The notes under the pieces were generated by a model. It was given only the letters and a program-made list of their open reading frames with translations, did not search any database and had not been told where the DNA came from. The position numbers were made by a program, and so were the translations under genes. Of a stretch of 39,503 nt of DNA, positions 1,092 to 7,723 are shown piece by piece (the stretch's first letter is position 1; each line of letters starts with the position of its first letter). Origin of the DNA: Thermoleophilia bacterium (GTDB lineage Bacteria > Actinomycetota > Thermoleophilia > Miltoncostaeales > Miltoncostaeaceae); contig JALOLS010000009.1 of NCBI GenBank assembly GCA_025455865.1, positions 1-39,503 of the forward strand, in the 5' to 3' direction.

Positions 1092-1871
1092 GTGACGCAC
1101 CCCCCGGCCGATCCGCCCGCCGCCCCCCGGGTCATCCCGGCCACCGCCGCCGTCCCGGCGGCCCGCGCCGCCCCTCCCGGCCCGGGCGGGCCGCCGGCCC
1201 GGGGGCGCGGGTCGCGCGGACCCCTGCCCCCCGGGGCGCGCCTGCTGCGGGCCGACCGCCGGCGCTGCGACGGGCGCGTGGCCGGCGCCGACGAGGCCGG
1301 TCGCGGCTGCCTCGCCGGCCCGCTCGTCGCCGCCGCCGTCTGCCTGGACATCCCGGCGCTCGGGCGCCGCGCGCGCCGGGCCCTCGCCGACCTCGACGAC
1401 TCCAAGCGCCTCAGCCCGCTCGCCCGCGAGCGCCTGGCCGAGGCGGTCATGACCCACGCCGCGCACGTGGTGGTCGTCTCGGCGAGCCCGGCGACGATCG
1501 ACCGGGACGGCCTGCACCGCACGAACCTGCGTCTGCTGGCGCGGGCGCTGGCCGGCGTCGACCCGGCGGCGGACCTCGCCCTCGTCGACGGCTTCCGCCT
1601 GGGCCCCGCCGCCCCCGTCCATCAGCACGTGGTCGGCGGCGACCGTCTGAGCGCGGCCATCGCCGCGGCCTCCGTCGTGGCCAAGACCGTGCGTGATCGC
1701 CTGATGGCCGGCCCGGTCGCCGAGGCGTGGCCGGCCTTCGGCTTCGGCGCCCACGTGGGCTACGGCACGCCCGCCCATCAGCAGGCCATCCGCGCCGAGG
1801 GCCCCTGTCCGCTGCATCGCCGCTCCTTCCGGTCCGCCGCCTACGCGGAGCTCCGCCTGTTCGAGCCCTGA
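1092..1871 (+). CDS. rnhB: Ribonuclease HII
   Basis: Removes RNA, including single ribonucleotides, from RNA-DNA hybrids during replication and repair. Seen: GADEAGRG (65-72) with catalytic Asp67 and Glu68, DDSKRLSP (102-109), the third acidic residue in LVDG (Asp166), and AASVVAKTVRD ending in Asp202, followed by HVGYGTPAHQ. The core is complete. The first 50 or so residues are a Pro/Ala/Gly-rich extension not found in most RNase HII. The GTG at 1092 is supported by a TACCCT element 8 bases upstream, but a start further in cannot be excluded. The 3' end overlaps the convergent yraN by 31 bases. Neighbours yraN, comM and dprA match the usual actinobacterial order. Confidence 0.96.
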   Translation: MTHPPADPPAAPRVIPATAAVPAARAAPPGPGGPPARGRGSRGPLPPGARLLRADRRRCDGRVAGADEAGRGCLAGPLVAAAVCLDIPALGRRARRALADLDDSKRLSPLARERLAEAVMTHAAHVVVVSASPATIDRDGLHRTNLRLLARALAGVDPAADLALVDGFRLGPAAPVHQHVVGGDRLSAAIAAASVVAKTVRDRLMAGPVAEAWPAFGFGAHVGYGTPAHQQAIRAEGPCPLHRRSFRSAAYAELRLFEP

Positions 1872-2239
1872 CCGGCGCCGGGCGGCCCGTCGAACGCGCC
1901 GGCCAGGTGGCGCACCCGCAGGCCCGCCGCCCCCGCGCGCACGGTCAGCACGTCGAAGCGCACGAGGGCCCCGGCCAGGTGCGGTCGCCGGGCGAGGAAG
2001 GCGGCCGTCGCCCGCACCACCCGCTCGCGCTGGGCCCGGCGCACCGGGTCGGCGAGGGCCGCCTCGTCGCCCCGGGTCTTCACCTCGCAGACCGCGACGA
2101 TCCCGTCCCGCAGCGCGACGAGGTCCAGCTCCCCGCCACCACCCCGCCAGTTGCGGGCGAGGACCACCCAGCCCCGCCGGCGCATCCAGCGCTCGGCGGC
2201 GTCCTCGCCGCGCCTGCCCGTCACCGCGTTCGCTCCCAT
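1841..2239 (-). CDS. yraN: YraN (UPF0102) family endonuclease-like protein
   Basis: 132 residues with the restriction-endonuclease-like fold signature of the family: GRRGEDAAERW near the N-terminus, GGGELDLVA (33-42 region) and CEVKTR (51-56), which together carry the Asp and Glu-x-Lys of a PD-(D/E)xK nuclease site. The biological role is unknown; linkage to rnhB, comM and dprA suggests DNA processing. The ATG at 2239 is chosen because the conserved N-terminus begins there and a CACCCT element lies 6 bases upstream. The frame stays open to 2347, but that extension is unlike the family and covers a repeated regulatory-looking element. The gene is convergent with rnhB and divergent from comM. 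Confidence 0.92.
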   Translation of the reverse strand: MGANAVTGRRGEDAAERWMRRRGWVVLARNWRGGGGELDLVALRDGIVAVCEVKTRGDEAALADPVRRAQRERVVRATAAFLARRPHLAGALVRFDVLTVRAGAAGLRVRHLAGAFDGPPGAGQGSNRRSSA

Positions 2240-2245
2240 GCACGG

Positions 2246-2251
2246 AGGGTG
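2246..2251 (-). promoter_or_regulatory. Putative -10 element (CACCCT) of yraN
   Basis: Read on the minus strand, CACCCT lies 6 bases before the ATG at 2239. It mirrors the CACCCT placed 7 bases before the divergent comM start, suggesting paired leaderless promoters. Confidence 0.4.
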
Positions 2252-2282
2252 GCGCAGCCGGTCCACGCCGGATGCGCACCAC

Positions 2283-2347
2283 GTGTGCCGGTCCGGTGAC
2301 GAGGGTGTGCCGGTCGCGGTGTGACAGGGCGTCACGGCGACCGGCAC
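2283..2347. repeat. Three-copy GTGCCGGTC...GTGAC element, two direct and one inverted
   Basis: The unit GTGCCGGTC followed closely by GTGAC occurs at about 2285-2300, again at 2307-2325, and inverted at 2331-2347. The second and third copies form a perfect 11-base inverted repeat (2307-2317 with 2337-2347) enclosing a 5-base inverted repeat (2321-2325 with 2331-2335). It sits midway between the divergent yraN and comM starts, the usual place for operators controlling both genes. No known regulator site is recognised. Confidence 0.6.
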
Positions 2348-2402
2348 GGCGCGGCGCGGACTCCGGCACGATCGGCTCGGGAACCGGGTGAGGGCCGCGC
2401 GC

Positions 2403-2408
2403 CACCCT
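2403..2408 (+). promoter_or_regulatory. Putative -10 element (CACCCT) of comM
   Basis: CACCCT lies 7 bases before the ATG at 2416, the leaderless spacing seen repeatedly in this window. Confidence 0.4.
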
Positions 2409-2415
2409 CCCCGGC

Positions 2416-3945
2416 ATGGTCGCCCGGCTGGTCAGCCCCGCAGTCCTCGGCATCGACACCTCCACCGTGGAGGTCGAGGTCGACCTGCGCCCGGGCATCC
2501 CGGCCTTCGCGGTCGTCGGGCTCCCCGACACCGCGGTGCAGGAGGCGCGCGAGCGGGTGCGCTCCGGGCTGGTCAACCAGGCCTTCGGGGTGCCCGCGCG
2601 GCGCATCGTGGCCAACCTGGCGCCGGCGGACCTGCGCAAGGCGGGCCCCCAGTACGACCTGCCCATCGCCATCGCGATCCTCGCGGCGTCCGGCCAGCTC
2701 TCGGCCGACGCCCTCGCCGGGGTGGGCGCGGTCGGCGAGCTCGCCCTCGACGGGGCGCTGCGCCCGGTGCCCGGGGCGCTCGCGATGGCCGAGCACGCGG
2801 CGCGCCGGGGCTGGCGGCGGTTCCTGGTGCCCGAGGCCAGCGCGGCCGAGGCGGCCCTGGTCGGCGGGGTGGAGGTGCTCGGCGCGGCCACCCTGCGCGA
2901 GGCGGTGGACCTCCTGGCCGGCCGGGCCGAGCCCCGGCCGCCCGCGGTCGACGCCGCCGCGCTCCTCGCCGCGGCCGACGGCGGCGGGGGCCCCGACCTC
3001 GCGGAGGTCCGGGGCCAGGCGCCCGCCCGCCGGGCGCTCGAGGTCGCCGCGGCCGGCGCGCACTCGCTGCTGATGATCGGGCCCCCGGGGGGTGGCAAGA
3101 CCATGCTCGCCCGCCGCCTGCCCGGGATCCTCCCGCCGCTGGACGTCGCCGACGCGATCGCCGTCACCCGCATCCACTCGGTCGCCGGGCTGCTCGACCC
3201 CGGCCGCCCCCTGGTCACCCGGCGCCCGTTCCGCGCCCCCCACCACACCATCTCCGCCGTCGGCCTGGTCGGCGGCGGCCGCCTGCCCCGGCCGGGGGAG
3301 GTCTCCCTGGCCCACCGGGGCGTGCTGTTCCTGGACGAGGTCTGCGCGTTCGCGCCGGCGGCGCTGGACGCGCTCCGCCAGCCGCTGGAGGAGGGGCGGA
3401 TCGACGTCTCCCGGGCCATGACCACCGCGCGGTTCCCGGCCGAGCCGCTGCTGGTCTGTGCGGGCAACCCGTGCCCCTGCGGGTTCGACGGCGACCCCAC
3501 GCGCCCGTGCGCCTGCCCTCCGGGGCGGGCCGAGGCCTACCGGGCCCGGCTCTCGGGTCCGGTGGCCGACCGCATCGACCTGCGGGTGGAGGTGCCGAGG
3601 CTCTCGCGCGAGGAGCTGCTCGGTGCCGGGGGGCCGGAGCCGAGCGCGGCGGTGCGGGCGCGCGTCGTGCGGGCGCGGACGGCACAGGCCGGGCGCGGCC
3701 AGGGGGCGCCCAACGCCCGCCTGGGACCGGCGGCCGCCCGGCGGGCGGCGGCGCTCGATGCGGCCGGCACGCGCCTGCTGGGCGCGGCCATCGACCGGCT
3801 CGGGCTCTCGGCCCGGGGGGTCGACCGCGTCATCCGCGTGGCCCGGAGCATCGCCGACCTCGCCGGCGCGGAGCGCGTGGGGGTCGACCACCTCGCCGAG
3901 GCGCTGCAGTACCGGGCGGCGCTCACGGGGCGGGCGGCGGCGTGA
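2416..3945 (+). CDS. comM: YifB/ComM family Mg chelatase-like AAA+ ATPase
   Basis: 509 residues, full length. In proteobacteria ComM is a hexameric helicase promoting branch migration during natural transformation; the actinobacterial role is inferred. Seen: the N-terminal ChlI-like Lon-protease-fold domain (VGLPDTAVQEARERV, about 34-48), Walker A GPPGGGKT (222-229), Walker B VLFLDEV (303-309), a cysteine cluster starting CAGNPCPCG at Cys348 that is typical of the family, and a C-terminal Mg-chelatase domain ending in AEALQYR. It overlaps dprA by four bases (GTGA), so the two are translationally coupled, consistent with a shared job handling single-stranded or incoming DNA. Confidence 0.95.
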   Translation: MVARLVSPAVLGIDTSTVEVEVDLRPGIPAFAVVGLPDTAVQEARERVRSGLVNQAFGVPARRIVANLAPADLRKAGPQYDLPIAIAILAASGQLSADALAGVGAVGELALDGALRPVPGALAMAEHAARRGWRRFLVPEASAAEAALVGGVEVLGAATLREAVDLLAGRAEPRPPAVDAAALLAAADGGGGPDLAEVRGQAPARRALEVAAAGAHSLLMIGPPGGGKTMLARRLPGILPPLDVADAIAVTRIHSVAGLLDPGRPLVTRRPFRAPHHTISAVGLVGGGRLPRPGEVSLAHRGVLFLDEVCAFAPAALDALRQPLEEGRIDVSRAMTTARFPAEPLLVCAGNPCPCGFDGDPTRPCACPPGRAEAYRARLSGPVADRIDLRVEVPRLSREELLGAGGPEPSAAVRARVVRARTAQAGRGQGAPNARLGPAAARRAAALDAAGTRLLGAAIDRLGLSARGVDRVIRVARSIADLAGAERVGVDHLAEALQYRAALTGRAAA

Positions 3946-5057
3946 GCGGCGGGCCGGACTGGCCGCTCGGCCTCGCCCGCCTCGCCGCCGAGCTGGGACG
4001 CGACCTCCAGCGCGCCGCCCGCGCGCTCGGAGGGCCGGCGGCCCTCTGGGGGGCGGGCGCGGAGGCGCTCGGCGCGGTGATGCGGCTCGACGGCGCCCTG
4101 CTGGCCCGGGTGCTCGCCGTGCGCGCGGCATTCGACCGGGGCACCGCGGAGGCCGCCCTCGCGGCGGCGGGGATCGGGCACGTCGCCCTGCCCGAGCGCG
4201 GCTACCCGGCCCGGCTGCGCGAGGTCTTCGACCCGCCGTTCGGGCTCTTCCTCGCCGGCGCCGCCCGCCCGGTCCTGGCCCGGGTGGCCGAGGGCCCGGT
4301 GGTCGCGGTGGTGGGGAGCCGCACGCCGACCGCCGCGGGAGGCCGGTTCGCCCGGGACCTGGCCCACGACCTCGCCAGGCGGGGCGCGGTGGTGGTGAGC
4401 GGGCTCGCCCGGGGGATCGACACGGCCGTGCACGAGGGGGCGCTGGAGGGCGGGTCGCCCACCGTGGCGGTGCTCGGGAGCGCGGTGGACGTGGTCCACC
4501 CCCGGCGGAACCGTGTGCTCGCCGGGCGCATCCGGACGACCGGGCTGGTGGTGAGCGAGTACTGGCCGGGCACGCCGCCGGCGCCCTGGCGCTTCCCGGC
4601 GCGCAACCGGATCGTCGCCGGGATGGCCCAGGCCGTCGTGGTGGTCGAGGCCGGCGCCCGCTCCGGTGCGCTCATCACCGCGGACTTCGCGCTTGAGCAG
4701 GGGCGGCCGGTGCTCGCGGTGCCCGGACCCCCCCGCGCGGAGCTCGCCGCGGGCTGTCACGCGCTGATCCGGGCCGGGGCGGCGCTCTGCGAGGGCGCCG
4801 ACGACGTCGTCGACGAGATCCCCGACGCGGGCTGGCGCGAGGCCGACGGGGCGGGGGTGGCCGAGCCCACCGGGCTCGCCGGGCGCGTGTGCGCGCTGCT
4901 CCGGCGCGAGCCGCTGCGGGCCGATCAGCTCGCCGCCGCGCTCGCCGAGGACCCCGGGCCGGTGGCCGCCGCGCTCGCGCTGCTCGAGGTCGACGGCTTC
5001 GTGCTCCGCGGCGAGGGCCAGCGCTACTGGGCGGCTCCGGGGCGGGGGGCGGCATGA
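3942..5057 (+). CDS. dprA: DNA-processing protein DprA
   Basis: 371 residues. DprA binds single-stranded DNA and loads RecA during transformation; it is also widespread in species not known to be competent. Seen: an N-terminal helical region, then the Rossmann-like domain with VGSRTPTAAG (124-133), SGLARGIDTAVHEGAL (153-168), FPARNRIVAG (218-227) and EAGARSGALITADFALEQGR (236-255), and a C-terminal winged-helix-like segment from about 300 to the end. The GTG at 3942 overlaps the comM stop. The 3' end overlaps the convergent pafBC-like gene by 34 bases, leaving no room for a terminator. Confidence 0.95.
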   Translation: MSGGPDWPLGLARLAAELGRDLQRAARALGGPAALWGAGAEALGAVMRLDGALLARVLAVRAAFDRGTAEAALAAAGIGHVALPERGYPARLREVFDPPFGLFLAGAARPVLARVAEGPVVAVVGSRTPTAAGGRFARDLAHDLARRGAVVVSGLARGIDTAVHEGALEGGSPTVAVLGSAVDVVHPRRNRVLAGRIRTTGLVVSEYWPGTPPAPWRFPARNRIVAGMAQAVVVVEAGARSGALITADFALEQGRPVLAVPGPPRAELAAGCHALIRAGAALCEGADDVVDEIPDAGWREADGAGVAEPTGLAGRVCALLRREPLRADQLAAALAEDPGPVAAALALLEVDGFVLRGEGQRYWAAPGRGAA

Positions 5058-7165
5058 GCCGGCGCCGGCGCCGCGACCCGGGCCCGGCCGTAGCGGCCGA
5101 GCATGTGCTCGGCGTGGGCGGCCACCACCCCGCGCATCGCGACGGGCTCGAACAGCACGGCCTCGCCCTGGTGCTTGACGACCTCCTTGACCAGCCAGTC
5201 CTGGCTCGCGTAGGGGATCTCGATCAGGACCGAGCCGTCGGCGAAGCGCTCGGCGGGCCGGTGCTCCTCCACCAGCCAGCGGGCGATCTGCGGGCTGCAC
5301 CAGACCGAGGCCCGCTCGGCGGTGCCGCCGCCGGCCGCCCGCTCCGCCCAGGGCAGGTACTGGCCGGCGTCGATGTCGCGCCGGTCGAACCGCTCGTCGA
5401 GCACGCGGGCGCTGCGGACCCGGTCGAGCCGGAAGGTGCGCTGGCCGCCGGCCCGCCGGCAGTGGGCGACCAGGTACCAGGCGTCGCGCGCGTTCATGAG
5501 CAGGTGGGGCTCGACCGCGCGGCGGGTGATGGCCCCGCGCGACTCGGTCCAGTACTCGATCTCGAGCACCCGGTCCTCGCGGATCGCCTCGGTGACCGCG
5601 TCGGCCACCCCGGCGTTGGCGGTGTAGACGCGGCCGAGCTCGACCCCGGTGACCCCGGCGGCGTCGCCGACGGCCTGCTCGATCTTCCGCCGGGCCGACC
5701 CGAGCGCCCGCTCGGCCACGATGGGCAGCCGGTCGCCGATGAAGTCCAGCGCCCACAGGAGCGCCTTCGCCTCCAGGGGGGACAGGCGCGCGGGCCGGGC
5801 GAACTGGTCGCCGTACATCTCCTTCTGCACGGTGACCGCGTCGCCGTCGACCTGCGCGTAGAGCGCGTAGCAGCCCCCGCCGAAGTTGATCAGGTTGAGG
5901 AGGGTGAGGTCCTCCTCGAGCGCCGGCTGGCTGAGGTTGAGCTCCCGCCTGAGCTCCGCGCAGGGGATCGAGGCCTCGCGCGAGCGCCCGCAGGCATCCA
6001 GCAGCCGGGCCATGAGCGCGAGCAGGCGGGAGATCCGCTCCACCGGGACCAGGCGCTCGGGGACCGCCGGGGTGGCGGCGGAGGGCGGGGGGGCGGCATC
6101 GGCCTCGCCGGCGGCGGCCGGCGCAGCCGGCCGGGGGCGCTCGGCGGCGCCGGCCCGGTGGCGGTCGCGCACCAGCACCAGGGCCGCCACGGCGGCCTCG
6201 CGCAGGTCCGCGGGCTCCACGACCTCGGCCTCCGGCCCCAGGCCGAGCACCCAGGTGAGGAGCTCGCGGCGGCTGCCGTACTCGGTGGTGTAGACGGCCG
6301 ACCCGTCCACGCGGCCCTCCACCGTGCCGTGGCCGCCGAACATCCGGTCGACCCACCACGCGATGGTCGGCGACAGGGCCACGCGGGCGGTGCCGGCGGG
6401 GTCCTCCAGCTGCCAGGGGGCCCGGTCGCGGTAGCGGGAGAGGTCGACCTCGGTCGGCGGCGGGAAGTCGTGCTCGGCGCGCGAGCGGAAGGTGATGCGG
6501 CCCTCGATGCGCGAGAGCCGGAAGCAGCGCAGCGCGTCGCGCTCGTGTGCGTGGCCGACCAGGTACCAGTTCCCGGCCATGTAGAGCAGGGTGTAGGGAT
6601 CGACCTCACGCTCGGATCGCTCGTCGCGCCCGATCGAGTAGTAGGTGAAGCGGATGGTCTTCCGCCGGCTGATCGCCGCCTCGATCTTGATCAGATGGGA
6701 GGCGACCTCGGCCGGGCTCCCGGAGCCGAGCAGGTTGACCGCGACGGTGCTGGCCGCCCGGTCGTCCAGCGGGCTCGGCCGGCCCAGGGTCAGGTGCTGC
6801 AGCGCCAGGCGCAGCGGCTCGGCGTAGGCGAACTGCCCCTCGAGCAGGAACAGGCAGGTGTGCAGGGCCGACAGCTCGGCGTCGTCGAACTCGATCGGCG
6901 GGAGGTAGTAGTTCTCCGGGGGCAGGGCGTAGAGGTCGCCCTGGAAGGGGTCGTCGCTCGGCCGCTCGACGGTGAGCTTGAGCCCCACGCCCTCGAGCTC
7001 CGAGCGGTCGGAGTAGAAGCGCCGCAGGAACGCCTGCTCGCTCATCCCGCCATAGCCCTCCACCGCCTCGTGGACCTCCTCGGCGGTGACCGGGCGCTGC
7101 AGCGACATCAGGTACGCGACCAGCGAGAGCTGGCGGACCAGCTTGTCGTCGTCCCTCTGGGCCAC
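5024..7165 (-). CDS. pafBC: Fused PafBC-type double WYL-domain transcriptional regulator
   Basis: 713 residues made of two similar halves, each a helix-turn-helix, a WYL domain and a C-terminal extension. The first half has its HTH near 10-68 and WYL residues at 200-202; the second has its HTH near 378-435 and WYL at 563-565. An Ala/Pro-rich linker (about 339-370) joins them. In mycobacteria PafB and PafC are separate proteins forming a heterodimer that activates the LexA-independent DNA damage response when the WYL domain binds single-stranded DNA; natural fusions are known in other actinobacteria. The GTG at 7165 is chosen from GGGGAG about 8 bases upstream. The damage-response role here is inferred from architecture and the DNA-metabolism neighbours. 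Confidence 0.88.
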   Translation of the reverse strand: MAQRDDDKLVRQLSLVAYLMSLQRPVTAEEVHEAVEGYGGMSEQAFLRRFYSDRSELEGVGLKLTVERPSDDPFQGDLYALPPENYYLPPIEFDDAELSALHTCLFLLEGQFAYAEPLRLALQHLTLGRPSPLDDRAASTVAVNLLGSGSPAEVASHLIKIEAAISRRKTIRFTYYSIGRDERSEREVDPYTLLYMAGNWYLVGHAHERDALRCFRLSRIEGRITFRSRAEHDFPPPTEVDLSRYRDRAPWQLEDPAGTARVALSPTIAWWVDRMFGGHGTVEGRVDGSAVYTTEYGSRRELLTWVLGLGPEAEVVEPADLREAAVAALVLVRDRHRAGAAERPRPAAPAAAGEADAAPPPSAATPAVPERLVPVERISRLLALMARLLDACGRSREASIPCAELRRELNLSQPALEEDLTLLNLINFGGGCYALYAQVDGDAVTVQKEMYGDQFARPARLSPLEAKALLWALDFIGDRLPIVAERALGSARRKIEQAVGDAAGVTGVELGRVYTANAGVADAVTEAIREDRVLEIEYWTESRGAITRRAVEPHLLMNARDAWYLVAHCRRAGGQRTFRLDRVRSARVLDERFDRRDIDAGQYLPWAERAAGGGTAERASVWCSPQIARWLVEEHRPAERFADGSVLIEIPYASQDWLVKEVVKHQGEAVLFEPVAMRGVVAAHAEHMLGRYGRARVAAPAPAHAAPRPGAAQ

Positions 7166-7198
7166 GCACTCTCCCCTGGAATCCGGCGCGCCCGGCCG

Positions 7199-7204
7199 AT
7201 GATA
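7199..7204 (-). promoter_or_regulatory. Putative -10 element (TATCAT) of the pafBC-like gene
   Basis: On the minus strand TATCAT ends 33 bases before the GTG at 7165, giving a leader of roughly 25 bases with a GGGGAG ribosome binding site. The same bases contain the putative ATG of the divergent thermonuclease gene, so the two starts would interfere. Confidence 0.4.
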
Positions 7205-7723
7205 CCCGAGGGTGGGGGTCCCCCCGGCCGCCGCGACCGCCGCCGCCCCGCGCTCGGGGCGCTGGTCGCGGCGCTGCTGCTGGCCGGGTGCGGCGGCCCG
7301 GCCGCGCCCGCCGGCGGGCGCGTGGAGCGGGTCCTGGACGGCGACACCATCGTGGTGGGCGGCGTCGGGACGGTGCGGTACCTGGGCATCGACACCCCCG
7401 AGCTCCACCACCCGCGCAAGCCGGTGGAGCGGCTGGCCGGCGCCGCGATGCGGGCCAACGCCCGGATGGTCGGCGGCCGGTGGGTGCGCCTGGAGACCGA
7501 CCGGGAGGTGCGCGACCGCTACGGGCGGCTGCTCGCCTACGTGTGGGTGGGGGGACGGATGGCCAATGCCGAGATGGTCCGCCGCGGCCTGGCCGAGGAC
7601 TTCCCCTTCGCGCCGAACACCCGCCACGCGCCGCTCTTCGCCCGGCTGGAGCGGGATGCCCGCCGGGCCGGGCGCGGGCTCTGGGGGCGGGCGGAGGGCG
7701 GGCCGCCCTGGGGGTCGCCGTGA
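7199..7723 (+). CDS. Thermonuclease (SNase-like) lipoprotein
   Basis: 174 residues. The N-terminus has an arginine-rich start, a hydrophobic stretch and the lipobox LLLAGC (Cys about residue 34), so it is probably exported and lipid-anchored. The mature part is a staphylococcal-nuclease OB-fold: VERVLDGDTIVV, then VRYLGIDTPELHHP and DRYGRLLAYV, which supply the family's metal-binding Asp, catalytic Glu and both Arg. It should cut DNA or RNA outside the membrane. The ATG at 7199 has no clear ribosome binding site and overlaps the pafBC promoter, so the exact start is uncertain. The downstream gene converges 13 bases away. Confidence 0.87.
   Translation: MIPEGGGPPGRRDRRRPALGALVAALLLAGCGGPAAPAGGRVERVLDGDTIVVGGVGTVRYLGIDTPELHHPRKPVERLAGAAMRANARMVGGRWVRLETDREVRDRYGRLLAYVWVGGRMANAEMVRRGLAEDFPFAPNTRHAPLFARLERDARRAGRGLWGRAEGGPPWGSP

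Follow-up and report, generated by a model that had tools for sequence, protein, structure and literature searches.

The intergenic region between yraN and comM, in a 39,503-nucleotide stretch of a Miltoncostaeaceae genome (the window), contains two arrays of a short direct repeat. Together these are likely a double activator operator, read by a protein of the OmpR fold (response regulator or SARP type) and switching on a competence and DNA-processing regulon. A multi-site operator for genes of DNA uptake and processing had been proposed in the initial annotation, and the proposal is supported by the same unit occurring in the same register before comM, comEA, comF, comEC (in genome G003), yraN, and some DNA-processing genes.

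The genome containing the window (G000; Thermoleophilia, Actinomycetota) is a draft of 3,163,586 bases in 186 contigs. The divergent gap has exactly the reported length of 176 bases (2240-2415), between the ATG of yraN (complement of 2237-2239) and that of comM (2416). yraN (1841-2239, minus strand) encodes a YraN-family nuclease-like protein and comM (2416-3945, plus strand) a YifB/ComM AAA ATPase. Directly 3' of comM and overlapping its end is dprA (3939-5057, plus strand), and the two genes probably form one operon. Convergent to dprA and ending against it is the gene of an 866-aa double WYL/PafBC-like protein (5024-7627, minus strand), identified by eye and without an NCBIfam match, a possible damage regulator adjoining the DNA-processing operon.

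Two direct copies and one inverted copy of a composite, GTGCCGGTC-N-GTGAC, lie where the initial annotation placed them, at 2285-2300 (plus), 2307-2325 (plus), and 2331-2347 (minus). Three copies in the window compare with 0.01 expected from dinucleotide shuffles of it. The whole draft genome contains four, three of them in the yraN-comM gap and the fourth where the reading frame of a different gene begins, probably gcvT (L001), and no match to the reversed control pattern. The repeat unit, however, is not this 14-19-bp composite but the hexamer GTGHCR (GTG[ACT]C[GA]) or its complement, of which the region holds seven. Four are on the plus strand: GTGCCG at 2285-2290 (CGGCAC when read in the direction of yraN), with its end 45 nt from the yraN ATG; GTGACG at 2296-2301, 11 bp on and 56 nt from that ATG; GTGCCG at 2307-2312, a further 11 bp on and 67 nt away; and GTGACA at 2321-2326, 14 bp on and 81 nt away. 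Three are on the minus strand and face comM: CGTCAC (GTGACG on the minus strand) at 2330-2335, 80 nt from the comM ATG; CGGCAC at 2342-2347, 68 nt from it; and CGGCAC at 2364-2369, 46 nt from it. With the last of these the array runs on to 2369, beyond the 2283-2347 first assigned to the element. The spacing of the units at 2285, 2296, and 2307 is the 11-bp direct repeat of OmpR/PhoB-type operators.

The nested inverted repeats that had been described are present but secondary, the composite resolving into the seven hexamers at spacings of 11, 12, 14, and 22 bp. The layout is that of two back-to-back direct-repeat arrays, one per gene, and since each gene faces its own array, the inverted repeat mirrors the two promoters. 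We rejected it as the main feature because relatives conserve the direct-repeat spacing and not the arms. Nor is the element scattered through coding regions, an outcome that was to count against it; the genome has just two triple 11-bp arrays.

An identical 12 bases, GCGCCACCCTCC, lies close before the ATG of both comM (2399-2410, plus strand) and yraN (2244-2255, minus strand), and is the probable promoter core of each, with CACCCT as the putative -10. The promoters look leaderless, with a weak -10 and no evident -35, and the start sites are presumably leaderless as well. In the family, a -10-like [CT]AnnnT precedes comM by 5-9 nt in 12/20 loci (0.97 expected), and TAnnnT precedes comEA by the same distance in 12/15 (0.21 expected). 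The proximal unit is separated from the -10-like hexamer by 32-33 bp, and by 32 bp at comEA promoters as judged by eye, among them that of G011, where the unit is 32 bp from TAGCGT and the rule yields no start codon. An alternative-sigma element was rejected: the unit precedes the -10 by 32-33 bp, where such an element would call for 16-19 bp.

To follow the units through the family we collected 31 comM loci, from related and mostly draft genomes. Pair counts and window counts used 20 of these and 15 to 18 of 30 comEA loci, excluding loci with an unclear start and, in one genus, near-duplicates, together with 21 comF loci. Unit letters vary among relatives (GTGTCG in G007, GTGCCG or GTGACG elsewhere), while same-strand spacings at comM loci peak at 11 and 22 bp family-wide. 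Pairs of GTG[ACT]C[GA] at these two spacings number 17 in the 20 comM upstream regions (shuffle mean 0.31, maximum 3), 7 in the 21 comF regions (mean 0.21, maximum 3), and 4 in the 15 comEA regions (mean 0.18, maximum 2), a set in which the starts of G006, G011, and G053 were misassigned. The control, 22 pstS loci, gave 1 pair (mean 0.22). Windows with such a pair amount to 8/20 for comM, 4/15 for comEA, and 6/21 for comF, against 10/1,933 in background from the same genomes. The initial annotation would have given up the operator had close relatives sharing the yraN-comM divergence been without it; G007 has its own array there, in other letters. Among the loci examined the operator is restricted to the family: 12 comM loci from other Thermoleophilia families yielded no 11- or 22-bp pair, and only one of them has a unit at 44-46 nt.

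The distance from the units to the start codons is likewise fixed. Measured from the end of the unit [CT]GNCAC across all 31 comM and all 30 comEA loci, four of the latter without a findable start, the distance of a unit to the start codon is 44-46 nt in 12/31 comM loci (shuffle mean 0.17) and 15/26 comEA loci (shuffle mean 0.09), the exact rule being missed by the other 19 and 11, respectively. In smaller locus sets these units span six genera for comM and seven for comEA. Background is 6 of 372 leaderless-like starts, from loci not picked for the pattern. The 46-nt distance at comM recurs in G011, G019, and G041. Of the 24 comF loci in this test, 18 have a plausible start and 9 of these have units at 44-45, 55, or 66-67 nt; the starts were picked by their likeness to a -10, which favors the pattern, and start codons in general were chosen partly in this way. 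At yraN the distances are 45/56/67/81 nt in G000 and 25/36/47/58 nt in G007. The units at comM and comEA hold the fixed helical register of an OmpR/PhoB-type operator. As in a competence regulon, several com genes of one genome have the unit in common; in G003 four agree (comEA 44/55, comEC 44/55, comF 44/66, and comM 45/56 nt). The units, their spacing, the fixed register, and the shared gene set are all results of computation on these genomes.

The triple 11-bp array has 25 matches in 42 family genomes, compared with 5 for the reversed pattern. Those with the register include the arrays at yraN in G000 and G007. In G014 it precedes comF, in register, and a pyrimidine (nucleoside) phosphorylase gene of the same genome has units at 45/56/67 nt. 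G003 has units before an error-prone DNA polymerase (44/55/66 nt) and a topoisomerase (57/68 nt). Other triple arrays adjoin genes unrelated to DNA uptake, namely those of a DUSP-like protein, an M23 peptidase/CcmF, a GDSL lipase (in a gap), and a transporter of the SMR type. Common to G000 and G011 is a triple GTGHCG array that separates the DUSP-like protein from a thioesterase-like gene (L049 1501-1527 and L059 1501-1527); both copies are off the 44-nt rule, and the G000 protein has no Pfam match. In the genome of the window itself, comEC lacks an 11- or 22-bp pair, comF has a single unit, 66 nt from its start, and a search with TIGR00426 did not find comEA. The regions upstream of comF in G007 (L236) and G041 (L231) are filled with short near-palindromes, TTGGCCACTTGGCC-like in the former and GGTCCAATTGGACC-like in the latter.

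Direct repeats one turn apart that precede a weak -10 by approximately 32-33 bp, in a fixed helical register and with no -35 evident, point to an activator whose monomers lie side by side in contact with RNA polymerase, and this position suggests activation, not repression. In the mechanism that we favor, each of the two back-to-back GTGHCR arrays would serve the leaderless promoter that it faces in direct-repeat order and helical register, that of yraN on one side and that of comM-dprA on the other. Protein monomers would line up on the hexamers along a single face of the DNA, at intervals of 11 bp (one turn) or 22 bp, the nearest ending approximately 45 nt before the start codon, and once bound would recruit RNA polymerase to a -10 that is weak and has no evident -35. 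Because family members also have the operator before comEA, comF, comEC, and a number of DNA-processing genes, it would co-induce DNA uptake (ComEA, ComEC, and ComF) with processing of the strand taken up (DprA, ComM, and YraN) and further DNA metabolism.

The reader is probably an OmpR-fold protein of response regulator or SARP type, and its identity is the least certain part of this explanation. Proteins of this fold bind in such a manner, PhoP to PHO boxes of 11 bp and SARPs to heptamers repeated every 11 bp. The genome of the window encodes 16 Trans_reg_C proteins. We compared the Trans_reg_C repertoires of eight genomes (G000, G001, G003, G007, G009, G011, G018, and G020), a comparison that leaves out part of the weakest matches of G007, G011, G018, or G020 and the matches of G012 and G041. 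One response-regulator group, with Response_reg and Trans_reg_C domains, is present in G000, G003, G007, G009, and G018, has a diverged member in G011, and is absent from the com-poor G001 and G020, which have no comM, comEA, or comEC match. By eye, the receiver of some members is without the usual acidic pair and lysine. The member in the genome of the window (contig C172, L397:14830-15558) stands at the head of a Tad/Flp pilus cluster, upstream of T2SSE/T2SSF genes, and those of G003 and G009 adjoin RcpC/CpaB of such a cluster. It is the only OmpR-fold response regulator tracking the com genes among the compared genomes and, by this co-occurrence, the best candidate found, which we offer as a lead. 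An 11-, 12-, 22-, or 23-bp pair is absent from all 16 loci of OmpR-family regulator genes in the genome of the window, and among the six loci of the candidate that were read a 22-bp pair, as for autoregulation, precedes it in G003 only; two further G041 regions do not contain the candidate. In Micrococcus luteus, Tad pili are required for transformation (PMC4322843). It is possible, though only tentatively proposed, that the arrays are the operator of a dedicated competence regulon, the first to be described for Actinomycetota, read by this atypical response regulator so that pilus and uptake genes are switched on together from weak leaderless promoters.

Two genera differ in their complement of these genes. 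Genus g2 (G001, G012, G020, and G023) has no comM, ComEC, or ComEA match and keeps PilM-like matches, so that here the family has lost competence genes naturally. Genus g10 (e.g., G009 and G018), whose genomes are the smallest, keeps com genes and has no PilM match above the cut-off. In G009, the one g10 genome in which the cluster was tested with Pfam, Tad genes lie beside the candidate regulator, and together with the missing PilM match this suggests that Tad may be the uptake pilus of g10.

An operator of a DNA-damage or repair regulon that includes the com genes only incidentally, read by a damage regulator such as the WYL/PafBC-like protein, is unlikely, even though the error-prone polymerase, the topoisomerase, and yraN bear units and that large protein lies convergent to dprA at 5024-7627. 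Pure uptake genes (comEA, comEC, and comF) are among the carriers, comEA being the most consistent, and the published PafBC motif lies about 8 bp from the -10, compared with 32 bp here; the loci examined include no recA, lexA, or imuB. The LexA box of actinobacteria, GAAC-N4-GTTC, was also considered and rejected, no such palindrome being present in the sequence of 2240-2415. Less probable still is a small winged-helix reader of the BldC kind, forming a head-to-tail polymer on direct repeats, with the HTH_17 protein Mlut_14660 as the parallel. BldC does bind as cooperative multimers to varying numbers of direct repeats one helical turn apart, and Mlut_14660 was a hit in a screen of M. luteus (PMC5859096 and PMC8467076, respectively). 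As defined in the former, however, the BldC repeat is AT-rich, AATTXXXX(C), with approximately 9 bp per subunit, and it is absent from the sequence of 2285-2369, whose units are rich in GC and have a spacing of 11 bp; no homologue came up when the examined loci, which cover part of the genomes, were searched with a BldC probe.

The activator reading also has to be set against a Pho box, under which PhoP or PhoB would bind the arrays and the genes would respond to phosphate starvation. The 11-bp spacing is the same, and in some genomes the pstS box continues into GTCAC units, but the family uses TTCAC-N6-TTCAC at pstS, GTGHCR pairs there stay near chance in the control given above, and the com units differ from TTCAC, which makes this a very improbable explanation. 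The family's own Pho box is separate and clear before pstS in several genomes (L187-L207), running on into GTCAC-N6-GTCAC in L193 and L197. We give hardly any credence to a repeat arisen by chance or to an element of RNA or terminator type: nested inverted repeats exist, but no Rfam family matched up to E=1, what is conserved is direct-repeat spacing and register rather than pairing, and the placement is far above chance.

A 2026 study of M. luteus states that the upstream signals and regulatory cascade of competence are still to be identified there, and describes knowledge on Actinomycetota as scant (PMC12849477). Among open-licence PMC papers, subscription literature being outside the search, none came up that describes an operator for competence in Thermoleophilia or Actinomycetota, nor does the accessible text of PMC8467076 or PMC12849477. 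As far as we have seen, the type of operator is known, while its use, letters, and register are new. A sequence-defined operator common to comEA, comEC, comF, and comM gives a direct handle on the regulator and its regulon, and the 44-46-nt register before apparently leaderless starts provides a criterion by which members of the regulon could be recognized in relatives that are uncultured.

Several known systems resemble the arrays in part. Competence boxes of other phyla (cin-box/SigX, CRP-S/Sxy, and the ComK box) likewise place one operator before several com genes, and differ in unit, spacing, and phylum. Operators of SARPs consist of heptamers repeated directly at a spacing of 11 or 22 bp, a repeat pattern also seen here, and classically adjoin or overlap the -35 at about 8 bp from the -10, whereas the proximal unit here is 32-33 bp from the -10-like hexamer; the target genes differ as well. 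PimR is itself an exception among SARPs, its three CGGCAAG heptamers with 4-bp spacers forming a site that does not overlap the -35 (PMC5930380). It shares with the present arrays this position, the 11-bp direct repeats, probable activation, and a heptamer very similar to CGGCAC/CGTCAC. The only link to a SARP here is one array in G015 near a gene that appears SARP-like by eye and has no Pfam match. BldC is alike in that its direct repeats vary in number and follow each other at one turn. Mutations of Mlut_14660, the published alternative as a reader, encoded next to a cpaB gene in M. luteus, alter comEA/EC promoter activity, and this tie to comEA/EC expression is the likeness (PMC8467076). 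In Streptomyces, PHO boxes of the OmpR-family response regulator PhoP consist of 11-bp units in tandem, directly repeated and located upstream of the promoter (PMC2605767). The arrays before comM and yraN share this arrangement, with GTGHCR in place of the GTTCAC-like unit and a different set of genes.
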